Positions 253 to 24,178 of a DNA stretch of 38,849 nucleotides are shown in pieces. The DNA is taken from the IMG/VR virus record IMGVR_UViG_3300023179_002684, positions 1-38,849 of that record; one strand, 5' to 3'. The first letter of the stretch is position 1. Each line of letters opens with the position of its first letter. The DNA is from a virus. Made by a program: the position numbers and the translations under genes. The notes beneath the pieces are model-generated. The model saw only the letters and a list, made by a program, of their open reading frames with translations. It had not been told where the DNA came from and searched no databases.

Positions 253-1080
253 ATGAAAAAGGTAGTGGGTATATTAGTAATTCTATTTACTGCTGCGTAT
301 TTGCCAGCAGTATCTGCAGAAGAAAAACCAGCAATTGCAATTATTGATACAGCAATTGATACTAATGTTGTAAAGGTTTTTCATGAAGTTTGCGTAATGC
401 AAGAAAAACGTTGTCCAAACAAACAAACATTTATGGAGGGTCCAGGATCTGCGACTCTTCCAGCATCACAACTATATAAAAATGGATTTCATCATGGAAC
501 AGTAATGGCTTCCATTGCTGCATCTATTAATCCTAATATGAATATTATTTTTGTTCGTATTGTTCCTATGGCAAACAATGGTCGTCAAGGTTTTTACGGA
601 GAAAATGATTTAAATGGTGCATTTCAATGGGTTCTTGCAAACAAGTCAAGATTCAATATTGTTGCAATTTCTGCATCATTAGGCAGTCATAGTTTTAAAT
701 CTATGACAAACTATTGCCCTGTGCGAGAATATCTTAGTAAGAGCATTACTGATTTACAAAGTCTAGGAGTAGCAACTGTTCTTGCTGCTGGTAATAATTA
801 TGATAAACAGCGTGTTGACTTTCCAGCATGTATTTCTGAGTCTATTGCAGTAGGTTCTGTTGGAGAACGTGGCAATATTGAAAACTATAGTAATGGTGGA
901 CCAGATTTGGACTTCTATGCTTTAGGAACATATGATACTGCTCTTGGTAGGGCTATGGGTACTTCTGCTGCTACCGCTGCATTTGCTGCATACTGGGCAA
1001 AAAATTACAAGGGTACCTATCAAGCAACATATGATAATGTAAAATCATTATCTAAGGATCTTGTAGTATCAGTTAAGTAG
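253..1080 (+). CDS. Secreted S8 family serine peptidase (subtilase)
   Basis: This 275-residue protein has an N-terminal signal peptide (KK followed by a hydrophobic run, likely cleavage after VSA near residue 22) and then a subtilisin-type catalytic domain. The triad is visible as Asp32 (IIDTAID), His81 (HHGTVMA) and Ser238 (GTSAATA), with oxyanion Asn181 (AAGNN). It is short for the family and lacks an obvious inhibitory propeptide, because mature sequence begins just after the signal. A strong AAAGGAG site precedes the ATG. It should act outside the cytoplasm, for example on host surface proteins or at lysis. A secreted subtilase is unusual in a phage; a role as prohead protease is less likely given the signal peptide. 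Confidence 0.9.
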   Translation: MKKVVGILVILFTAAYLPAVSAEEKPAIAIIDTAIDTNVVKVFHEVCVMQEKRCPNKQTFMEGPGSATLPASQLYKNGFHHGTVMASIAASINPNMNIIFVRIVPMANNGRQGFYGENDLNGAFQWVLANKSRFNIVAISASLGSHSFKSMTNYCPVREYLSKSITDLQSLGVATVLAAGNNYDKQRVDFPACISESIAVGSVGERGNIENYSNGGPDLDFYALGTYDTALGRAMGTSAATAAFAAYWAKNYKGTYQATYDNVKSLSKDLVVSVK

Positions 1081-1147: not shown

Positions 1148-1579
1148 ATGGTAAGTTCATTTGCATTGGATCTTTTTAAAGATCCATTTTTTATTGGTTT
1201 CAACAGAGAGTTGGACCGACTTTCAAATATCCATCGTGAGGCTGTTCGTCAATCTTTTCCACCATATGACTTGGTGAAACTTGATGATGACACCTATAGG
1301 ATATCTCTTGCAGTTGCTGGTTTTAACAGCAGCGAAGTAGAGGTTTCTGTGGATAATGGAAGTTTAATTATCAAGGGTGAGAAAACCGATGAGGCTTCTA
1401 CAGAAGTCTTACATAAGGGTATCGCAACCAGAAAGTTCACACGCACCTTTGCTCTTGGAGAGTATATGGAGGTTGATCGTGCTGAAATGGCAGACGGTAT
1501 TCTTAATGTCTTTGTGGAAAGAAACATTCCCGAAGAAAAGAAACCTAAAAAAATCGCAATTAAGTCTACAAAAAAGTAG
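1148..1579 (+). CDS. hsp20: Hsp20 / small heat shock protein (IbpA-like)
   Basis: This 143-residue protein has an alpha-crystallin domain at about 37-129. FPPYDLVKLDDDTYRISLAV matches the class A/IbpA start, AGF follows at 57-59, the GIL motif is at 117-119 and the C-terminal I-x-I tail is IAI at 136-138. Small heat shock proteins are ATP-independent holdases that stop aggregation of unfolding proteins; phage versions are thought to help virion protein folding or stress tolerance. A good AAGGAGG site precedes the ATG. It has its own promoter and a structured leader. Confidence 0.93.
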   Translation: MVSSFALDLFKDPFFIGFNRELDRLSNIHREAVRQSFPPYDLVKLDDDTYRISLAVAGFNSSEVEVSVDNGSLIIKGEKTDEASTEVLHKGIATRKFTRTFALGEYMEVDRAEMADGILNVFVERNIPEEKKPKKIAIKSTKK

Positions 1580-7061: not shown

Positions 7062-7343
7062 ATGAAGCAGCACCTCTGGAAAGATGATGCTTTGTGTCTA
7101 GGATCAGATACAAATATATTCTTTGATGTATATGAAGAAAAAACAGATACAAGAGAGTTTGTTGATTCTCTTTGTCGTACCTGCCCAGTAGCAAGACAAT
7201 GTTTTGCTGTTGGTGTCTCTGGTAAAGAGTGGGGCATATGGGGCGGGGTATATTTAGAAGAAGGCGAAATATCAAAAGAATTTAATAATCATAAGACTAA
7301 ACAAGATTGGTCTTATACTTGGCAAGCATTAACGATGGGATAG
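7062..7343 (+). CDS. whiB: WhiB-family transcriptional regulator
   Basis: This 93-residue protein carries the four iron-sulfur cysteines Cys12, Cys38, Cys41 and Cys47 (CRTCPVARQC) and the GIWGG turn at 58-62. WhiB proteins bind a 4Fe-4S cluster and sigma factor region 4, adjusting RNA polymerase promoter choice; phage copies such as mycobacteriophage TM4 WhiBTM4 can interfere with host WhiB2. The family is confined to actinobacteria and their phages, so it fixes the host group. The basic C-terminal tail expected for DNA contact is weak (NNHKTKQDW). Confidence 0.95.
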   Translation: MKQHLWKDDALCLGSDTNIFFDVYEEKTDTREFVDSLCRTCPVARQCFAVGVSGKEWGIWGGVYLEEGEISKEFNNHKTKQDWSYTWQALTMG

Positions 7344-19578: not shown

Positions 19579-19740
19579 TCACCTCTGTTTTGGTTCTAGT
19601 TTGTCCCAGTGCCCTGCAGGACTTCCTTGATACATTTGTCCAGTTTCTCTATCAATGAGAAGCCATTTAGTTGGTGCTAAAGTCTTTACAACAAGCAACA
19701 CTTCTTCTAAAGTTTCGGGGTATTGAAAAGACTCACGCAT
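19579..19740 (-). CDS. Small hypothetical protein
   Basis: This 53-residue protein ends QMYQGSPAGHWDKLEPKQR, a pattern seen in short phage proteins. The start at 19740 is preferred because it overlaps the previous stop; a longer form would overlap that gene by over 70 nt. Function unknown. Confidence 0.6.
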   Translation of the reverse strand: MRESFQYPETLEEVLLVVKTLAPTKWLLIDRETGQMYQGSPAGHWDKLEPKQR

Positions 19741-20380
19741 TATCGTCCCTGTTCGTAATGTCGTAATGATATGAATCAGAATCTTCTGTAATCCATTTAG
19801 CAGCATCTTCTACATCCCATTTGCGGGTATTGATTAAGCGATGTATAACAGGCTTACCAGGCTTAGTAGTGAAGGAAGGCTCTAAGGCAAAGATACGATT
19901 GTTTGGCTGAATAGCAAAGTTACCATCATCACGCTGAATAACATGACCACACTTATGTTGGCCAGGGTTTTCAGAATAACCATCATCTAAACTATTTGCA
20001 TCTCCGCTATACCAGTCAAGAGTAAATAAATATTTGCCAGATATCTTAGTCTTAGTTCTATCCATATAGAACATACGAAGGTTTGCAAGATTTGAAAACT
20101 TTGTCACGGTAATAAAAGGACTAAATGAATTCCACAATACTAGATTATGTATATCAACTTCAGGCACATTAGGTTCGGCGCAGAACGCATTGATTGGCAT
20201 ACGCCACCAGATACCACCATCTTCCATCATAAAGTGAAATAGTGGACTGCGGTTCGGTACACTGGAAACGCCAAAGATCACGCAAGGTAAGTAAACGTCG
20301 TGGCTATCTTTTTGGTTCCGCAAAAAATTACCCCGCACATAACATTCAATCGGCGGGATGTTAGCATTTAATTCGGGCAT
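19733..20380 (-). CDS. Hypothetical phage protein
   Basis: This 215-residue protein is rich in aromatic residues and Asn, with PLFHFMMEDGGIWWRMPINA in the first half. No family is recognised. The start is leaderless: extended -10 TGGTAGAAT ends exactly 6 nt before the ATG. It is followed by a coupled small gene. Confidence 0.65.
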   Translation of the reverse strand: MPELNANIPPIECYVRGNFLRNQKDSHDVYLPCVIFGVSSVPNRSPLFHFMMEDGGIWWRMPINAFCAEPNVPEVDIHNLVLWNSFSPFITVTKFSNLANLRMFYMDRTKTKISGKYLFTLDWYSGDANSLDDGYSENPGQHKCGHVIQRDDGNFAIQPNNRIFALEPSFTTKPGKPVIHRLINTRKWDVEDAAKWITEDSDSYHYDITNRDDNA

Positions 20381-20975: not shown

Positions 20976-21345
20976 AATTAATTACCTTAAATGCATCGCC
21001 TGTTTCTTCATCTATAAAGTCCCAATGAAACTCTTCCCAATAAGGAACACCATCTTCATTGTAATCATCCCATCCAGGACCTTCCATATCTAAATCATAA
21101 ACATAAAATGTTCCATACTTATTATAAATAGGCCAAAAAGTATCCCAAAGAAATAAATTAACTTTATATCTCCAACCAGTATACCCGTTATCTTCCATGT
21201 AGGATACATCTAGTAGGCCTCTTGATGCAATGCCACCTAGCCAGTTTGCAATCCAGCGTAAAGGGCGACGGGATTTATGAATAGCCACAGAGTCATCTAA
21301 AATAGACCTAACCTCATTCATACTGTCTAATTGATCATAAGGCAT
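20965..21345 (-). CDS. Hypothetical protein rich in Trp and Tyr
   Basis: This 126-residue protein has a strongly aromatic, acidic C-terminal half (DDYNEDGVPYWEEFHWDFID) and RPLRWIANWLGGIASRGLLD in the middle. No family is recognised. It overlaps the upstream membrane protein gene by 11 nt. Confidence 0.6.
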   Translation of the reverse strand: MPYDQLDSMNEVRSILDDSVAIHKSRRPLRWIANWLGGIASRGLLDVSYMEDNGYTGWRYKVNLFLWDTFWPIYNKYGTFYVYDLDMEGPGWDDYNEDGVPYWEEFHWDFIDEETGDAFKVINYGK

Positions 21346-21493
21346 ATGCCAACACTCCTAATAGAAATCCTATAATGAAGGAAGCCCCGACCAAGGTAGA
21401 GATAAAACGCTTTTCAAGATAGCGTTTGATGACAGCCCGTTCTACCTCACGGTCTACTTCATAAATTTCCTCGTCAATATAGTATTCAGCCAT
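21335..21493 (-). CDS. Small membrane protein
   Basis: This 52-residue protein has an acidic and basic N-terminal helix (DEEIYEVDREVERAVIKRYL) then one membrane segment (STLVGASFIIGFLLGVLAYA). The start is leaderless: TTGACT-17-TATACT ends 6 nt before the ATG. Confidence 0.65.
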   Translation of the reverse strand: MAEYYIDEEIYEVDREVERAVIKRYLEKRFISTLVGASFIIGFLLGVLAYAL

Positions 21494-21499
21494 CAAACC

Positions 21500-21528
21500 A
21501 GTATACCCCATTTCGGGCGGGGAGTCAA
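21500..21528 (-). promoter_or_regulatory. Leaderless promoter
   Basis: On the - strand, TTGACT (21528-21523) and TATACT (21505-21500) are 17 bp apart and the ATG at 21493 follows after 6 nt. The -35 overlaps the stop of the upstream micro-gene. Confidence 0.75.
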
Positions 21529-21584
21529 ATAAAGACTACGATTAAAGTAACTAAAGGAAGTATCCACCATATATGCTTAAGCAT
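21525..21584 (-). CDS. Membrane micro-peptide
   Basis: This 19-residue peptide (MLKHIWWILPLVTLIVVFI) is a single membrane helix. TGAGGAATAAC precedes its ATG. It is short, so the call rests on the ribosome site and on its fit between two genes. Confidence 0.4.
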   Translation of the reverse strand: MLKHIWWILPLVTLIVVFI

Positions 21585-21585
21585 G

Positions 21586-21819
21586 TTATTCCTCAAATGA
21601 GGTTTGGGATTCTAGCATAGCGTTGATATCGCCATTAAGAGGATCATGGTTTGGGCATACGGGAAAGAGTTGATAGCCAATTGCTTTTATACCCTCGGAT
21701 TTTTGATTACAGAAATAGCACTTAGCCATAAACGCTAGGTTCTTCTGTCGCATATCGTCCAGTAATTGGACTAGGCGTACATCTTTATACCATTGCGTGT
21801 TTTGGCTAGGCATGGACAT
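21586..21819 (-). CDS. Zinc-binding hypothetical protein
   Basis: This 77-residue protein has KCYFCNQKSEG near 33-43 and VCPNHDP near 54-60, a CxxC plus CxxH arrangement. It overlaps the upstream 36-residue gene. Function unknown. Confidence 0.65.
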   Translation of the reverse strand: MSMPSQNTQWYKDVRLVQLLDDMRQKNLAFMAKCYFCNQKSEGIKAIGYQLFPVCPNHDPLNGDINAMLESQTSFEE

Positions 21820-21916
21820 ATCCCATTACATAGGCACAGGTTTTACAGACATACATGGTTTGGTTTGGTAAAACCATTTTAGTAAATGTGTGTTTGTCAT
21901 CATCACAGTATCGCAT
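21806..21916 (-). CDS. Small zinc knuckle protein
   Basis: This 36-residue protein has CDDDKHT at 4-10 and CKTC at 24-27. TTAGGAGAAC lies directly before the ATG. The start follows a member of the repeated hairpin family by about 19 nt. A longer reading in another frame through this region is rejected. Confidence 0.6.
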   Translation of the reverse strand: MRYCDDDKHTFTKMVLPNQTMYVCKTCAYVMGYVHA

Positions 21917-21934
21917 AGTTCTCCTAATTTTAAT

Positions 21935-21954
21935 GAGCAGTTTTTCTCATACTC
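21935..21954 (-). repeat. Copy 2 of the hairpin family
   Basis: On the - strand it reads CTCCTGAGTA, then TGAGAAAAAC, then TGCTC. The stem has one G-U pair. It lies between a structured leader and the ribosome site of the 21806-21916 gene. Confidence 0.55.
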
Positions 21955-22046
21955 AGGAGACTGCTTCCAATTTCTGTGGATGGGGTGGAGCAAATTTATC
22001 AGATCCCCATATGCGGTTTTGTGGTTGCAGGTTACCCTGCTTAACA

Positions 22047-22055
22047 ATTATAGCA
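22047..22055 (-). promoter_or_regulatory. Extended -10 promoter with GNRA hairpin at the predicted 5' end
   Basis: TGCTATAAT on the - strand (22055-22047) is followed by GCAGG-GTAA-CCTGC, a 5-bp hairpin with a GNRA-type tetraloop at the start of the transcript. The leader would run about 120 nt to the ATG at 21916. Confidence 0.55.
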
Positions 22056-22196
22056 TAAAAAGTTCTTACTAAAATAAAAATGATATTCCATTCGTGGAGG
22101 AAAGTGGAGGGAAGTGGGGAATGGAGCACTTTTCATAGGGGGCTTCGTAATGCCAAACCCCAAACCTTTCAATCCCGATATCCCCGATATGGGCGT

Positions 22197-22225
22197 ATCA
22201 TACACTAAGATATATGGTTTGTCAA
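22197..22225 (-). promoter_or_regulatory. Leftward consensus promoter
   Basis: On the - strand, TTGACA (22225-22220) and TATGAT (22202-22197) are 17 bp apart. The transcript would start near 22190 and run through a long leader to the genes below 21916. Confidence 0.7.
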
Positions 22226-22420
22226 GTCCTAAATACCGCCCAAAAAATGTAGAAAAATATAACAAAACGTTATAATAATATAACAAAATGTTACAATACC
22301 AAACCAAAATATCCAGAAATCTGGGAAAAAATAAATGGGGTTCGTAATGTCTTATATATGGGGGATTAGGGATACTTTTCTATACCCGCCCCTGCGGGGC
22401 CGCCGCCTGCGGCGGGGTAT

Positions 22421-22449
22421 TTGACAAAGATCGTAATGTCCTGTATACT
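22421..22449 (+). promoter_or_regulatory. Consensus promoter with CGTAAT operator in the spacer
   Basis: TTGACA (22421-22426) and TATACT (22444-22449) are 17 bp apart. The repeat motif ATCGTAATGTC fills most of the spacer, which suggests a repressor site over the promoter. GC-rich hairpins lie just upstream. Confidence 0.75.
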
Positions 22450-22455
22450 TATAAG

Positions 22456-22499
22456 TACATTGAGATCAGGTTACCTTTCTGGCCTGGTCTCAATTTTTT
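22456..22499 (+). ncRNA. Very short promoter-terminator transcript
   Basis: The promoter at 22421-22449 should start RNA near 22456. An 11-bp hairpin (22460-22470 with 22483-22493, one G-U pair) is followed by TTTTTT (22494-22499), an intrinsic terminator. The product would be about 45 nt. It may be a tiny RNA, a leader/attenuator, or a decoy promoter. Confidence 0.6.
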
Positions 22500-22514
22500 A
22501 TGGTTTGGGAGTAC

Positions 22515-22543
22515 TTGACAAAAGATACAAGGTTTGGTATACT
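22515..22543 (+). promoter_or_regulatory. Second consensus promoter with GGTTTGG in the spacer
   Basis: TTGACA (22515-22520) and TATACT (22538-22543) are 17 bp apart, and GGTTTGG occupies the 3' end of the spacer. No gene follows on this strand before the - strand genes at 22807. Confidence 0.7.
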
Positions 22544-22555
22544 GCAAACTTTCTG

Positions 22556-22626
22556 GCGGGGCTACGGTTTGATCGTTCGTAATGTCTCGTTCAGCGGGGG
22601 CTACGGTTTGGCCGTTCGTAATGTCT
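22556..22626 (+). repeat. Two direct repeats of about 32 bp
   Basis: GCGGGG..CTACGGTTTG (22556-22587) recurs with one extra G and few changes at 22594-22626, both ending GTTCGTAATGTCT. Each unit holds one GGTTTG and one CGTAAT motif, like paired operators or iterons. Confidence 0.7.
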
Positions 22627-22679
22627 GAAAATGGGCGGGGAATTTAAAGAACATCCTAATACCGCTATAGTATATATAA

Positions 22680-22693
22680 CAAACCATGGTTTG
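22680..22693. promoter_or_regulatory. 14-bp perfect palindrome
   Basis: CAAACCATGGTTTG is fully self-complementary and merges two inverted copies of the GGTTTG motif. A dimeric regulator could bind it. Confidence 0.55.
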
Positions 22694-22806
22694 GGGATAT
22701 AAGGTTTGGGATCGTAATACCTCTATCGTAATATCTGGTTTGGGATGCCTGGATTGTCTGGTTTGATAGTATTTAGCGGCAACTTCTAAAACGGGGCCGC
22801 AGGCGA

Positions 22807-23076
22807 TTACGGAGTATCTTCTCCTGCTGCCCAGATTTCTGTGATGTGTTCAAACCCCGTATCTTTTATTCCGATTATCCCAAGAAATAAATCCCAAGTT
22901 TCTGCGACATACTTCTTGCCGTCCTCAGTAATTTCACACAAGCCCTCAGCAGTTAGGTAAGCCAATGGCAAACCTACATCATTGAACTCTATAAACTCTT
23001 TCATTTTTTCATTATCACGAAACTGCGTATAGAAATCTCCTAAGATTTCTATTTTCTTAGAAAAGTCTGTCGTCAT
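22807..23076 (-). CDS. Conserved small phage protein
   Basis: This 89-residue acidic protein has FIEFNDVGLPLAYLTAEGLC and ETWDLFLGIIGIKDTGFEHI, a pattern found in hypothetical phage proteins. It is helical and lacks Cys pairs. GGGGGATACT precedes its ATG, and it overlaps the upstream gene. Confidence 0.7.
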   Translation of the reverse strand: MTTDFSKKIEILGDFYTQFRDNEKMKEFIEFNDVGLPLAYLTAEGLCEITEDGKKYVAETWDLFLGIIGIKDTGFEHITEIWAAGEDTP

Positions 23077-23293
23077 AGTATCCCCCTTGTTGGTAGTATT
23101 CTGCTACATCTTTATTATACCTTGCCGAATCCAAAACCTCAATAGCCCTGCTATAAACAACATAGGGATTAGAGTGAGCAAGATGATAGCCTACTGCTTC
23201 TAAATCAAGACCAAAATCAGATAGAACAACGCCTATCTTTCGGGCAGCCTTCTCCTCAGAAGTCATACCTACTCTTCGGTTGATTCTATACAT
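23057..23293 (-). CDS. Small hypothetical protein
   Basis: This 78-residue protein starts at 23293, chosen because TAGGAG lies just upstream; a longer form would start inside the upstream hairpin region. A helical stretch (SEEKAARKIGVVLSDFGLDL) precedes a Tyr-rich tail (YYQQGGYYDD). Function unknown. A TAGAAT box lies directly upstream. Confidence 0.6.
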   Translation of the reverse strand: MYRINRRVGMTSEEKAARKIGVVLSDFGLDLEAVGYHLAHSNPYVVYSRAIEVLDSARYNKDVAEYYQQGGYYDDRLF

Positions 23294-23417
23294 AGTCGCT
23301 CCTATTCTATCAAAAAAAGTGGGGGAGAGCAAGTTCTACCCTACCTGCTCTCAACCCCTATTGTGAGGTGACCCCTCATCCTCACATTATGGCCTGTTCA
23401 CCACGCAGGCCCCTCAT
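23294..23417 (-). terminator. Intergenic hairpins and promoter
   Basis: On the - strand, GTGAGG pairs with CCTCAC (around 23380) and GAGAGCA pairs with TGCTCTC (around 23330-23350). A weak TTGCTC-17-TAGAAT promoter follows and leads into the gene at 23293. No gene is seen. Confidence 0.45.
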
Positions 23418-23765
23418 TTAAACCATTGCTGGCAGATTGTAATCAATGAATGATTGTATTGGGTGAGATGACCCATGGTGTATAACAGTATTGTTAGTGA
23501 AGTCGACGGTGACTGGTTCATAGGACTCCTCGCCACCCTCCCTTCCTACATGTAGGCCAAACCCTGTTTCTTCATTCCAGGACGGTCCTACCAATTGACT
23601 CACAGTGATACGTAGTGCATATGGAATGTCTCCCATAGAAATACGTGGCATTGCTGCATTCAGTGCTGCAGCCAAATCTGGAAATTTACTGTCCCCACCC
23701 CAATGGCTGTACAGTGTTAAATCTCCCGTCGGTGTTACAAATGTAAAGTTAGTTCTTGCTCCCAT
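23418..23765 (-). CDS. Conserved actinophage-type protein, unknown function
   Basis: This 115-residue protein starts MGARTNFTFVTPTGDLTLYS HWGG, a common opening in hypothetical actinophage proteins. TGFGLHVGRE and a beta-rich tail follow. No catalytic motif is visible. An AGAAAGGA-type ribosome site precedes it. Confidence 0.7.
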   Translation of the reverse strand: MGARTNFTFVTPTGDLTLYSHWGGDSKFPDLAAALNAAMPRISMGDIPYALRITVSQLVGPSWNEETGFGLHVGREGGEESYEPVTVDFTNNTVIHHGSSHPIQSFIDYNLPAMV

Positions 23766-23833
23766 TATGTTTCCTTTCTAGTTGGTTTGCTTTAAGTGTA
23801 TCGAATTCAAGAGGTAATGTCAATTGGATCCAT

Positions 23834-24178
23834 TCATTCATCATCTGCCTCTATCTCATTCTCAAAATCAATAATGAGTTTAGCAACTCTGCCATTCTCA
23901 TCCATTTCTGCGAATACAGAATAATATCCGTCACCATAGCCAGTTGTAGATACAACAGCCCTGCCAGTCCCAATCATGCCAAAGTTATCTTTTAATGTGA
24001 TACCACAGGCACCAAGGTAGCCGTATTCTCCAGCCTTATTAATGTGATTATCAAATGGCTCTTTATCTCTATTCCAGTCTTGCCATTCATCCAGATAGCA
24101 TGGGTCACCAATCATTACCTGCCCACTGTCGACAGAAAATCCACCCACGTATTTTAGTTCTAGGTCATCAAACTTCAT
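23834..24178 (-). CDS. Hypothetical protein with DxGQ-DPCY motif
   Basis: This 114-residue protein contains VDSGQVMIGDPCYLDEW near 17-33 and GYGDGYYSVFAEMDENGRV near 80-98, a pattern repeated in many small phage and bacterial proteins of unknown role. The start at 24178 is chosen for GGGAGG upstream and an overlap with the previous stop. Confidence 0.65.
   Translation of the reverse strand: MKFDDLELKYVGGFSVDSGQVMIGDPCYLDEWQDWNRDKEPFDNHINKAGEYGYLGACGITLKDNFGMIGTGRAVVSTTGYGDGYYSVFAEMDENGRVAKLIIDFENEIEADDE

Follow-up and report, generated by a model that had tools for sequence, protein, structure and literature searches.

A repeat-dense non-coding region of an uncultured virus carries a candidate operator for the host cell-division repressor MraZ, beside DnaA boxes in many relatives

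The window, a 38.8-kb fragment of an uncultured virus, contains a non-coding region bordered on both sides by minus-strand genes (Table 1). Three of the small open reading frames inside the region (22041-22307, 22114-22275 and 22421-22582) are broken by stops or frameshifts in near relatives; the region is therefore regarded as non-coding, as the original prediction, made from the sequence alone, had proposed. Between 22050 and 22805 lie nine copies of GGTTTGG, three as CCAAACC on the left and six on the plus strand to the right, such that the heptamers point outward on both sides, and four further plus-strand copies occur at 21601-21868. TCGTAAT is present seven times in the region, always on the plus strand. 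First-order Markov shuffles give expectations of 0.16 and 0.15 copies for GGTTTGG and TCGTAAT, respectively, and the observed counts were reached in 0 of 5000 shuffles; the earlier tally of 11 GGTTTGG heptamers, flank included, and seven CGTAAT-type motifs was correct and far above chance. The 14-bp palindrome and the GC-rich hairpins that had been described are likewise present, and the reported pair of 32-bp direct repeats exists, although it measures 37 nt at 86% identity (22551-22587 and 22590-22626). Three promoters match the consensus at 11 of 12 positions (22421 and 22515 on the plus strand, 22225 on the minus strand) and are accompanied by weaker ones, but the earlier figure of at least four promoters is generous, since 11 promoter-like sites were counted in 1.8 kb where 5.5 are expected.

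Table 1. Features of the non-coding region and its borders in the window.
Feature	Position	Strand	Basis or remark
Non-coding control region, whole	22048-22806		Homologous region in ~70 viral contigs; small ORFs broken in relatives
Left-flank gene	21826-22047	-	Borders control region
Right-flank gene, 89 aa, function not assigned	22807-23076	-	Stays beside region in relatives
Degenerate version of conserved CTTACTGATATTTTTTAGAT block	22063-22090	+	Column conservation, 39 distinct sequences
MraZ box GTGGAGGAAAGTGGAGGGAAGTGGGG, three GTGG(A/G)G repeats, 10-bp period, single copy	22094-22119	+	Host-trained matrix, mraZ-upstream matches
TCGTAAT copy 1	22145-22151	+	At conserved 24-25 bp past MraZ box
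Two operator-like GGTTTGG heptamers	22153-22166	-	Motif count
Leftward promoter TTGACAAACC..TATGAT, 17-bp spacer	22197-22225	-	GGTTTG (as CAAACC) overlaps -35/spacer edge
AT-rich stretch ataacaaaacgttataataatataacaaaatgttac	22255-22296		Position conserved in relatives
GGTTTGG heptamer	22299-22305	-	Motif count
TCGTAAT copy 2	22342-22348	+	Motif count
GC-rich palindromes	~22388-22418		Upstream of rightward promoter
Rightward promoter 1, TTGACA-17-TATACT	22421-22449	+	TCGTAAT (22431) within spacer
Predicted ~45-nt transcript with terminator-like hairpin, conserved loop	22456-22500	+	Start site inferred from promoter
GGTTTGG heptamer	22502-22508	+	Motif count
Rightward promoter 2, TTGACA-17-TATACT	22515-22543	+	GGTTTGG (22531) adjoins -10
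Imperfect 37-nt direct repeat pair	22551-22626	+	Holds GGTTTG and TTCGTAATGTCT (22577, 22616)
14-bp palindrome CAAACCATGGTTTG	22681-22694		Sequence scan
GGTTTGG x3 (22688, 22703, 22737), TCGTAAT x2 (22712, 22726)	22688-22743	+	Motif count

A further copy of the CGTAAT motif near 19752 had been put forward as a distant target. Copies exist at 19753 and 19761, but a role as distant target is not supported: they fall in coding sequence, at the 3' coding end of gene 19733-20380 (minus strand), within its His-Tyr-Asp-Ile-Thr-Asn codons. This gene belongs to PHROG 3704, a group very common in aquatic phages (cyanophages, pelagiphages and Flavobacterium phages); it is labelled ferredoxin or PurM-like, and both labels look doubtful. 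Elsewhere in the window, a gene at 253-1080 (plus strand), judged by eye only to encode a subtilisin-like protease with a signal peptide, adjoins an Hsp20 gene (1148-1579, plus strand; Pfam).

The best-conserved element of the region, one that the original prediction had missed, is a G-rich repeat with a 10-bp period (gtggaggaaagtggagggaagtgggg), an element kept by all relatives when these are read side by side. What does this repeat represent? Its pattern has 42 matches in about 85,000 bacterial and archaeal genomes. Thirty-eight lie directly upstream of an open reading frame that bears the N-terminal signature of MraZ, in Actinobacteria, Clostridia, Bacteroidota and Chloroflexota; three of the other four are cut off before the next gene, and the last lies on a phage contig, L239 (RGSB01000072.1), which is nearly identical to the window over 21.5-25 kb and is binned with a 1.3-Mb Actinomycetota MAG. 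The presence of L239 inside this MAG represents either a host link or mis-binning. In the family of the MAG, the PF02381 profile confirmed mraZ in 39 of 41 genomes, and the mraZ upstream regions read from 25 of these contain the same kind of box with the same 10-bp period. A weight matrix built from 21 host mraZ boxes scores 30.6 bits at the window repeat (next best site, 11.2), and in ten of ten contigs scanned the phage box ranked top at 20-37 bits, with the best non-overlapping site at 14.8 or below. Among viral sequences the box pattern has 68 matches, compared with two for a reversed control and five for an 11-bp-period control; the controls also brought to light viral contigs (L402-L404) in which a variant of the repeat with an 11-bp period recurs several times. 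Four matches were rejected from the box set because they look like coding coincidences (L324, L327, L343 and L355), and a fifth, L319, was left out as doubtful. Wherever the box was sought there is one per record. A MraZ operator has three or more repeats of the (A/G)TGG(A/G)G type at a 10-bp period, and the window copy has three. On all the sequence criteria tested, the repeat qualifies as a MraZ box, and host MraZ is predicted to bind it.

In bacteria the MraZ box serves as the operator in front of mraZ and the dcw cluster (Eraso et al. 2014, as described in PMC8475190), and MraZ is a transcriptional repressor whose loss has no apparent phenotype in E. coli (PMC8475190). The phage box shares the repeat unit, the period and the repeat number of the actinobacterial mraZ operator. 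However, its carrier is a virus, neither mraZ nor a dcw gene is close to it, TCGTAAT follows it in place of the division operon, and the host's overlapping -35 and -10 elements are not preserved in the window. None of the 68 viral loci contains a mraZ open reading frame, and the box is present in about 70 related phage contigs encoding no MraZ. Against isolate phages, blastn of 21000-24000 returned no match, and a 40-nt query with the box hit nothing but two stretches of 17 nt in Bacteroides phages, a chance-level result. Searches of open-licence papers turned up no earlier account of a MraZ box in a phage.

How is the box embedded in other phages? The 47 distinct box regions comprise group A, with 39 sequences including the window, and group B, with eight; the two groups have a gene core in common. 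In group A the elements follow one another in the order TTATCCACA DnaA boxes (two to four copies, in 23 of 39), CTTACTGATATTTTTTAGAT block, MraZ box, TCGTAAT, GGTTTG-rich promoters, AT-rich stretch, and more copies of TCGTAAT and GGTTTG. In relatives the first TCGTAAT stands 24-25 bp downstream of the box, the CTTACTGATATTTTTTAGAT block sits between the DnaA boxes and the MraZ box, and AT content peaks at 72-78% just 5' of the box and again at 75-77% from +175 to +250. A leftward promoter of the TTGACA-17-TATAAT type lies at +126 to +185 from the box in 29 of the 39 distinct sequences, matching at 12 of 12 positions in 19, and nearly all of the 29 carry GGTTTG in the spacer or at its edge; this supports the earlier view of a control region with operators inside promoter spacers. 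Relatives that keep the flanking genes and lose the repeats were looked for; the relatives keep both, and in one of them, G053, the right-flank genes are syntenic at 38-85% identity. Single copies of GGTTTG and TCGTAAT are conserved at background level among close relatives and therefore turn over in position, and TCGTAAT has a strand bias of 163:1 and 24:0. TCGTAAT was rejected as a host site, with TTCGTAATGTCT showing no enrichment in 41 related host genomes once the phage contig that was binned with G012 is set aside. The gene to the left of the region has the opposite orientation in L294-type relatives. Group B has the box and TCGTAAT flanked by convergent gene blocks, so that no operon there needs a promoter, and DnaA boxes are found downstream in five of eight.

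We propose that these phages infect Actinobacteria because the window encodes a WhiB-family protein (7062-7343, plus strand; PF02467, E 9e-13), its DUF932 gene is closest to those of Streptomyces phages, and the relatives' Pol III shares 53% identity with its counterpart in Streptomyces phage BillNye. In taxonomic terms WhiB is confined to Actinobacteria, and its presence serves for calling their phages (PMC6802176); here it is also a candidate regulator of the region, as is a small HTH-like protein encoded ahead of the helicase. These large freshwater actinophages are probably virulent and are distantly related to the Stanwilliamsviridae. G053 encodes Pol III alpha, a DnaB-like helicase, a DnaG-like primase, SSB, RecA/UvsX and terminase. 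Genes for DnaA and MraZ (PF02381) were not found in the phage records searched, and integrase (PF00589) and ParA (PF13614) had no match in 13 possibly incomplete records. With a bacterial-type replisome and no initiator, the phage could use host DnaA. We also note near-perfect and perfect parS-type palindromes (TGTTTCACGTGAAAC), one inside the control region in L302 (~+69 from the box) and the other in a tail-fibre-like gene in G001 (29593); no accompanying ParA was found.

The tandem TTATCCACA boxes stand about 46 bp upstream of the MraZ box, in one orientation: 58 copies lie in the 150 bp before the box and 16 in the other 384 kb, a 238-fold enrichment. The near-confinement of tandem DnaA boxes to this place in many relatives makes the origin that had been predicted plausible for the family. 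An origin of the iteron type is not supported, since the repeats have no fixed spacing and copies turn over among close relatives. In the window, the stretch from -200 to +800 relative to the MraZ box holds no TTWTNCACA DnaA box, and the upstream boxes are missing throughout its clade and in 16 of the 39 distinct group A sequences. GC skew, proposed earlier as a check for an origin, has no switch at the region in the 90-104 kb relatives and tracks gene strand. GGTTTG was rejected as a stand-in for DnaA boxes in clades without them, the two being not mutually exclusive.

DnaA is used at bacterial oriC and at phage or plasmid origins such as those of lambda and P1. Many of the relatives resemble these in carrying tandem, one-orientation TTATCCACA next to an AT-rich block, and the AT peaks 5' of the MraZ box and at +175 to +250 agree with the AT-rich unwinding element expected beside the boxes of such an origin. 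In contrast to DnaA-dependent origins, the window lacks DnaA boxes, dnaA and dnaN are not neighbours, and the skew does not switch. By-eye comparison with the published definition of a DnaA-trio, which follows a GC cluster (PMC7561715), reveals no clear trio in the phage region, CTTACTGATATTTTTTAG fitting the [C/T]T[A/T] triplet rule in part. The host chromosomal origin was rejected as a donor: a module of DnaA box and CTTACT occurs in only 2 of 41 host genomes, with no resemblance beyond the pattern. As in the freshwater relatives, TTATCCACA clusters occur in non-coding stretches of two Streptomyces phages, the Stanwilliamsviridae isolates BillNye (NC_042105, ~119.4-120.5 kb) and Jay2Jay (NC_029098, ~122.0-123.0 kb). 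The BillNye doublet TTATCCACAGGGTTTATCCACA is nearly equal to that of the freshwater relatives, and the Jay2Jay cluster lies in the kilobase densest for TCGTAA among those scanned, with all copies on the same strand. A loose pattern for the MraZ box, however, had no match in the two 50-kb stretches scanned in each phage. In Jay2Jay the direct terminal repeat, whose start was deduced from duplicated genes, begins ~50-90 bp after the DnaA cluster (~122,000-122,100).

What might such a region do? We propose, with a probability of about one half, that it is a cis-acting control hub, probably a replication origin together with early promoters, that recruits host cell-cycle proteins. The hub would combine a predicted site for the host cell-division repressor MraZ with phage control elements; tandem sites for DnaA, the host initiator, would stand beside an AT-rich block in the majority of distinct relatives; and strong host-sigma promoters, with operator-like GGTTTGG and TCGTAAT in their spacers, would fire left and right. 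After infection, host RNA polymerase would take these promoters, and phage-encoded regulators acting at GGTTTGG and TCGTAAT (TTCGTAATGTCT, AAGGTTTGGGA) may switch them. The DNA would be opened here by host DnaA in the greater part of the family, and the phage DnaB helicase, primase and Pol III would then load, while host MraZ alongside could serve as a local architectural or transcriptional switch tying the locus to the host division programme. The window clade has no upstream DnaA boxes, so initiation there would need another route. Judged from its sequence, the region looks like an oriC-like plus early-control locus carrying sites for host cell-cycle proteins. More broadly, we give even odds that this actinophage family has set a single operator for a non-encoded host MraZ beside DnaA boxes and its own operators, making host MraZ part of a replication and transcription switch through which the host cell cycle would set the timing of infection or would itself be taken over.

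A purely transcriptional switch is a less probable alternative. Here phage regulators at GGTTTGG and TCGTAAT would govern the leftward and rightward early promoters, host MraZ and DnaA, seated in the leftward 5' untranslated region, would work as transcription factors or as roadblocks, and replication would start elsewhere. The motifs in the spacers of near-consensus promoters agree with this, as do the repressor function of MraZ (PMC8475190), the position of the MraZ and DnaA boxes downstream of the leftward start and the lack of a skew switch; the convergent genes around the group B box and TCGTAAT, and the reversed left gene of L294-type relatives, argue against it. It is improbable that the sites are instead a decoy, many phage copies of which would titrate host MraZ and DnaA, derepress the division and cell-wall cluster and block host replication. 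High-scoring single sites for two host cell-cycle proteins, neither encoded by the virus, would suit a decoy, but many copies rather than one MraZ box per genome would be expected, and the fixed spacing (24-25 bp to TCGTAAT, ~46 bp to the DnaA boxes) would not be needed.

Somewhat less probable again is a packaging site or physical end, to which the contig ends draw attention: of 69 contigs, 12 stop in the 700 nt that follow the box and none in the 700 nt before it, where 2.3 are expected on each side. The proximity of the Jay2Jay cluster to its deduced terminal repeat fits as well. Nevertheless, 57 of the 69 contigs continue past the stretch, assembly breaks at repeats explain the excess of ends equally well, and the BillNye cluster is ~5 kb from its deduced repeat start. 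We give very little credence to the iteron and immunity readings first suggested, in which a phage initiator would act at GGTTTGG or the region would serve lysogeny. The abundance of a single heptamer would be in keeping with either, but the spacing of the copies is irregular, their orientation mixed and their positions subject to turnover, and no phage initiator or Rep protein was identified; an immunity region is not supported because integrase and ParA were not found in the 13 records.

To return to the proposed hub, its logic recalls that of lambda OL/OR, early control regions with operators inside promoter spacers. The phage region similarly has strong left and right promoters with short repeated motifs in their spacers; it differs in having two unrelated motifs, putative regulators, no lysogeny genes found and a host MraZ site. 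Few bacterial regulators are as widely conserved as MraZ, and the retention of its operator in about 70 freshwater phage contigs without MraZ suggests that MraZ is a reliable host signal or a tool worth exploiting. The proposed tie of a phage control region to DnaA and to the control of division is directly testable, and a candidate origin is marked for a large uncultured phage family whose culturable distant cousins are the Stanwilliamsviridae.

Finally, the clade comprising the window, L239, L147, L196, L337 and L354, all without upstream DnaA boxes, has a rightward promoter with TCGTAAT in its spacer and a hairpin directly after it (z = -5.4), a promoter-hairpin unit (22421-22500) that had also escaped the original prediction. 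The layout of rightward promoter 1 recurs in L147, L196, L337 and L354, and that of rightward promoter 2, with GGTTTGG beside the -10 element, in L147, L196 and L354. Within the clade, conservation is 95% for the MraZ box, 90% for promoter hexamers and 72% for unmarked columns, and the hairpin stem has two compensatory base-pair changes in five sequences. Together the promoter and hairpin predict an RNA of ~45-80 nt with an invariant loop region GGUUACCUUUCUGGCC. The CU-rich loop UUACCUUUCU of this RNA could possibly pair with Shine-Dalgarno sequences, and a second hairpin precedes it in L147, L196 and L337.
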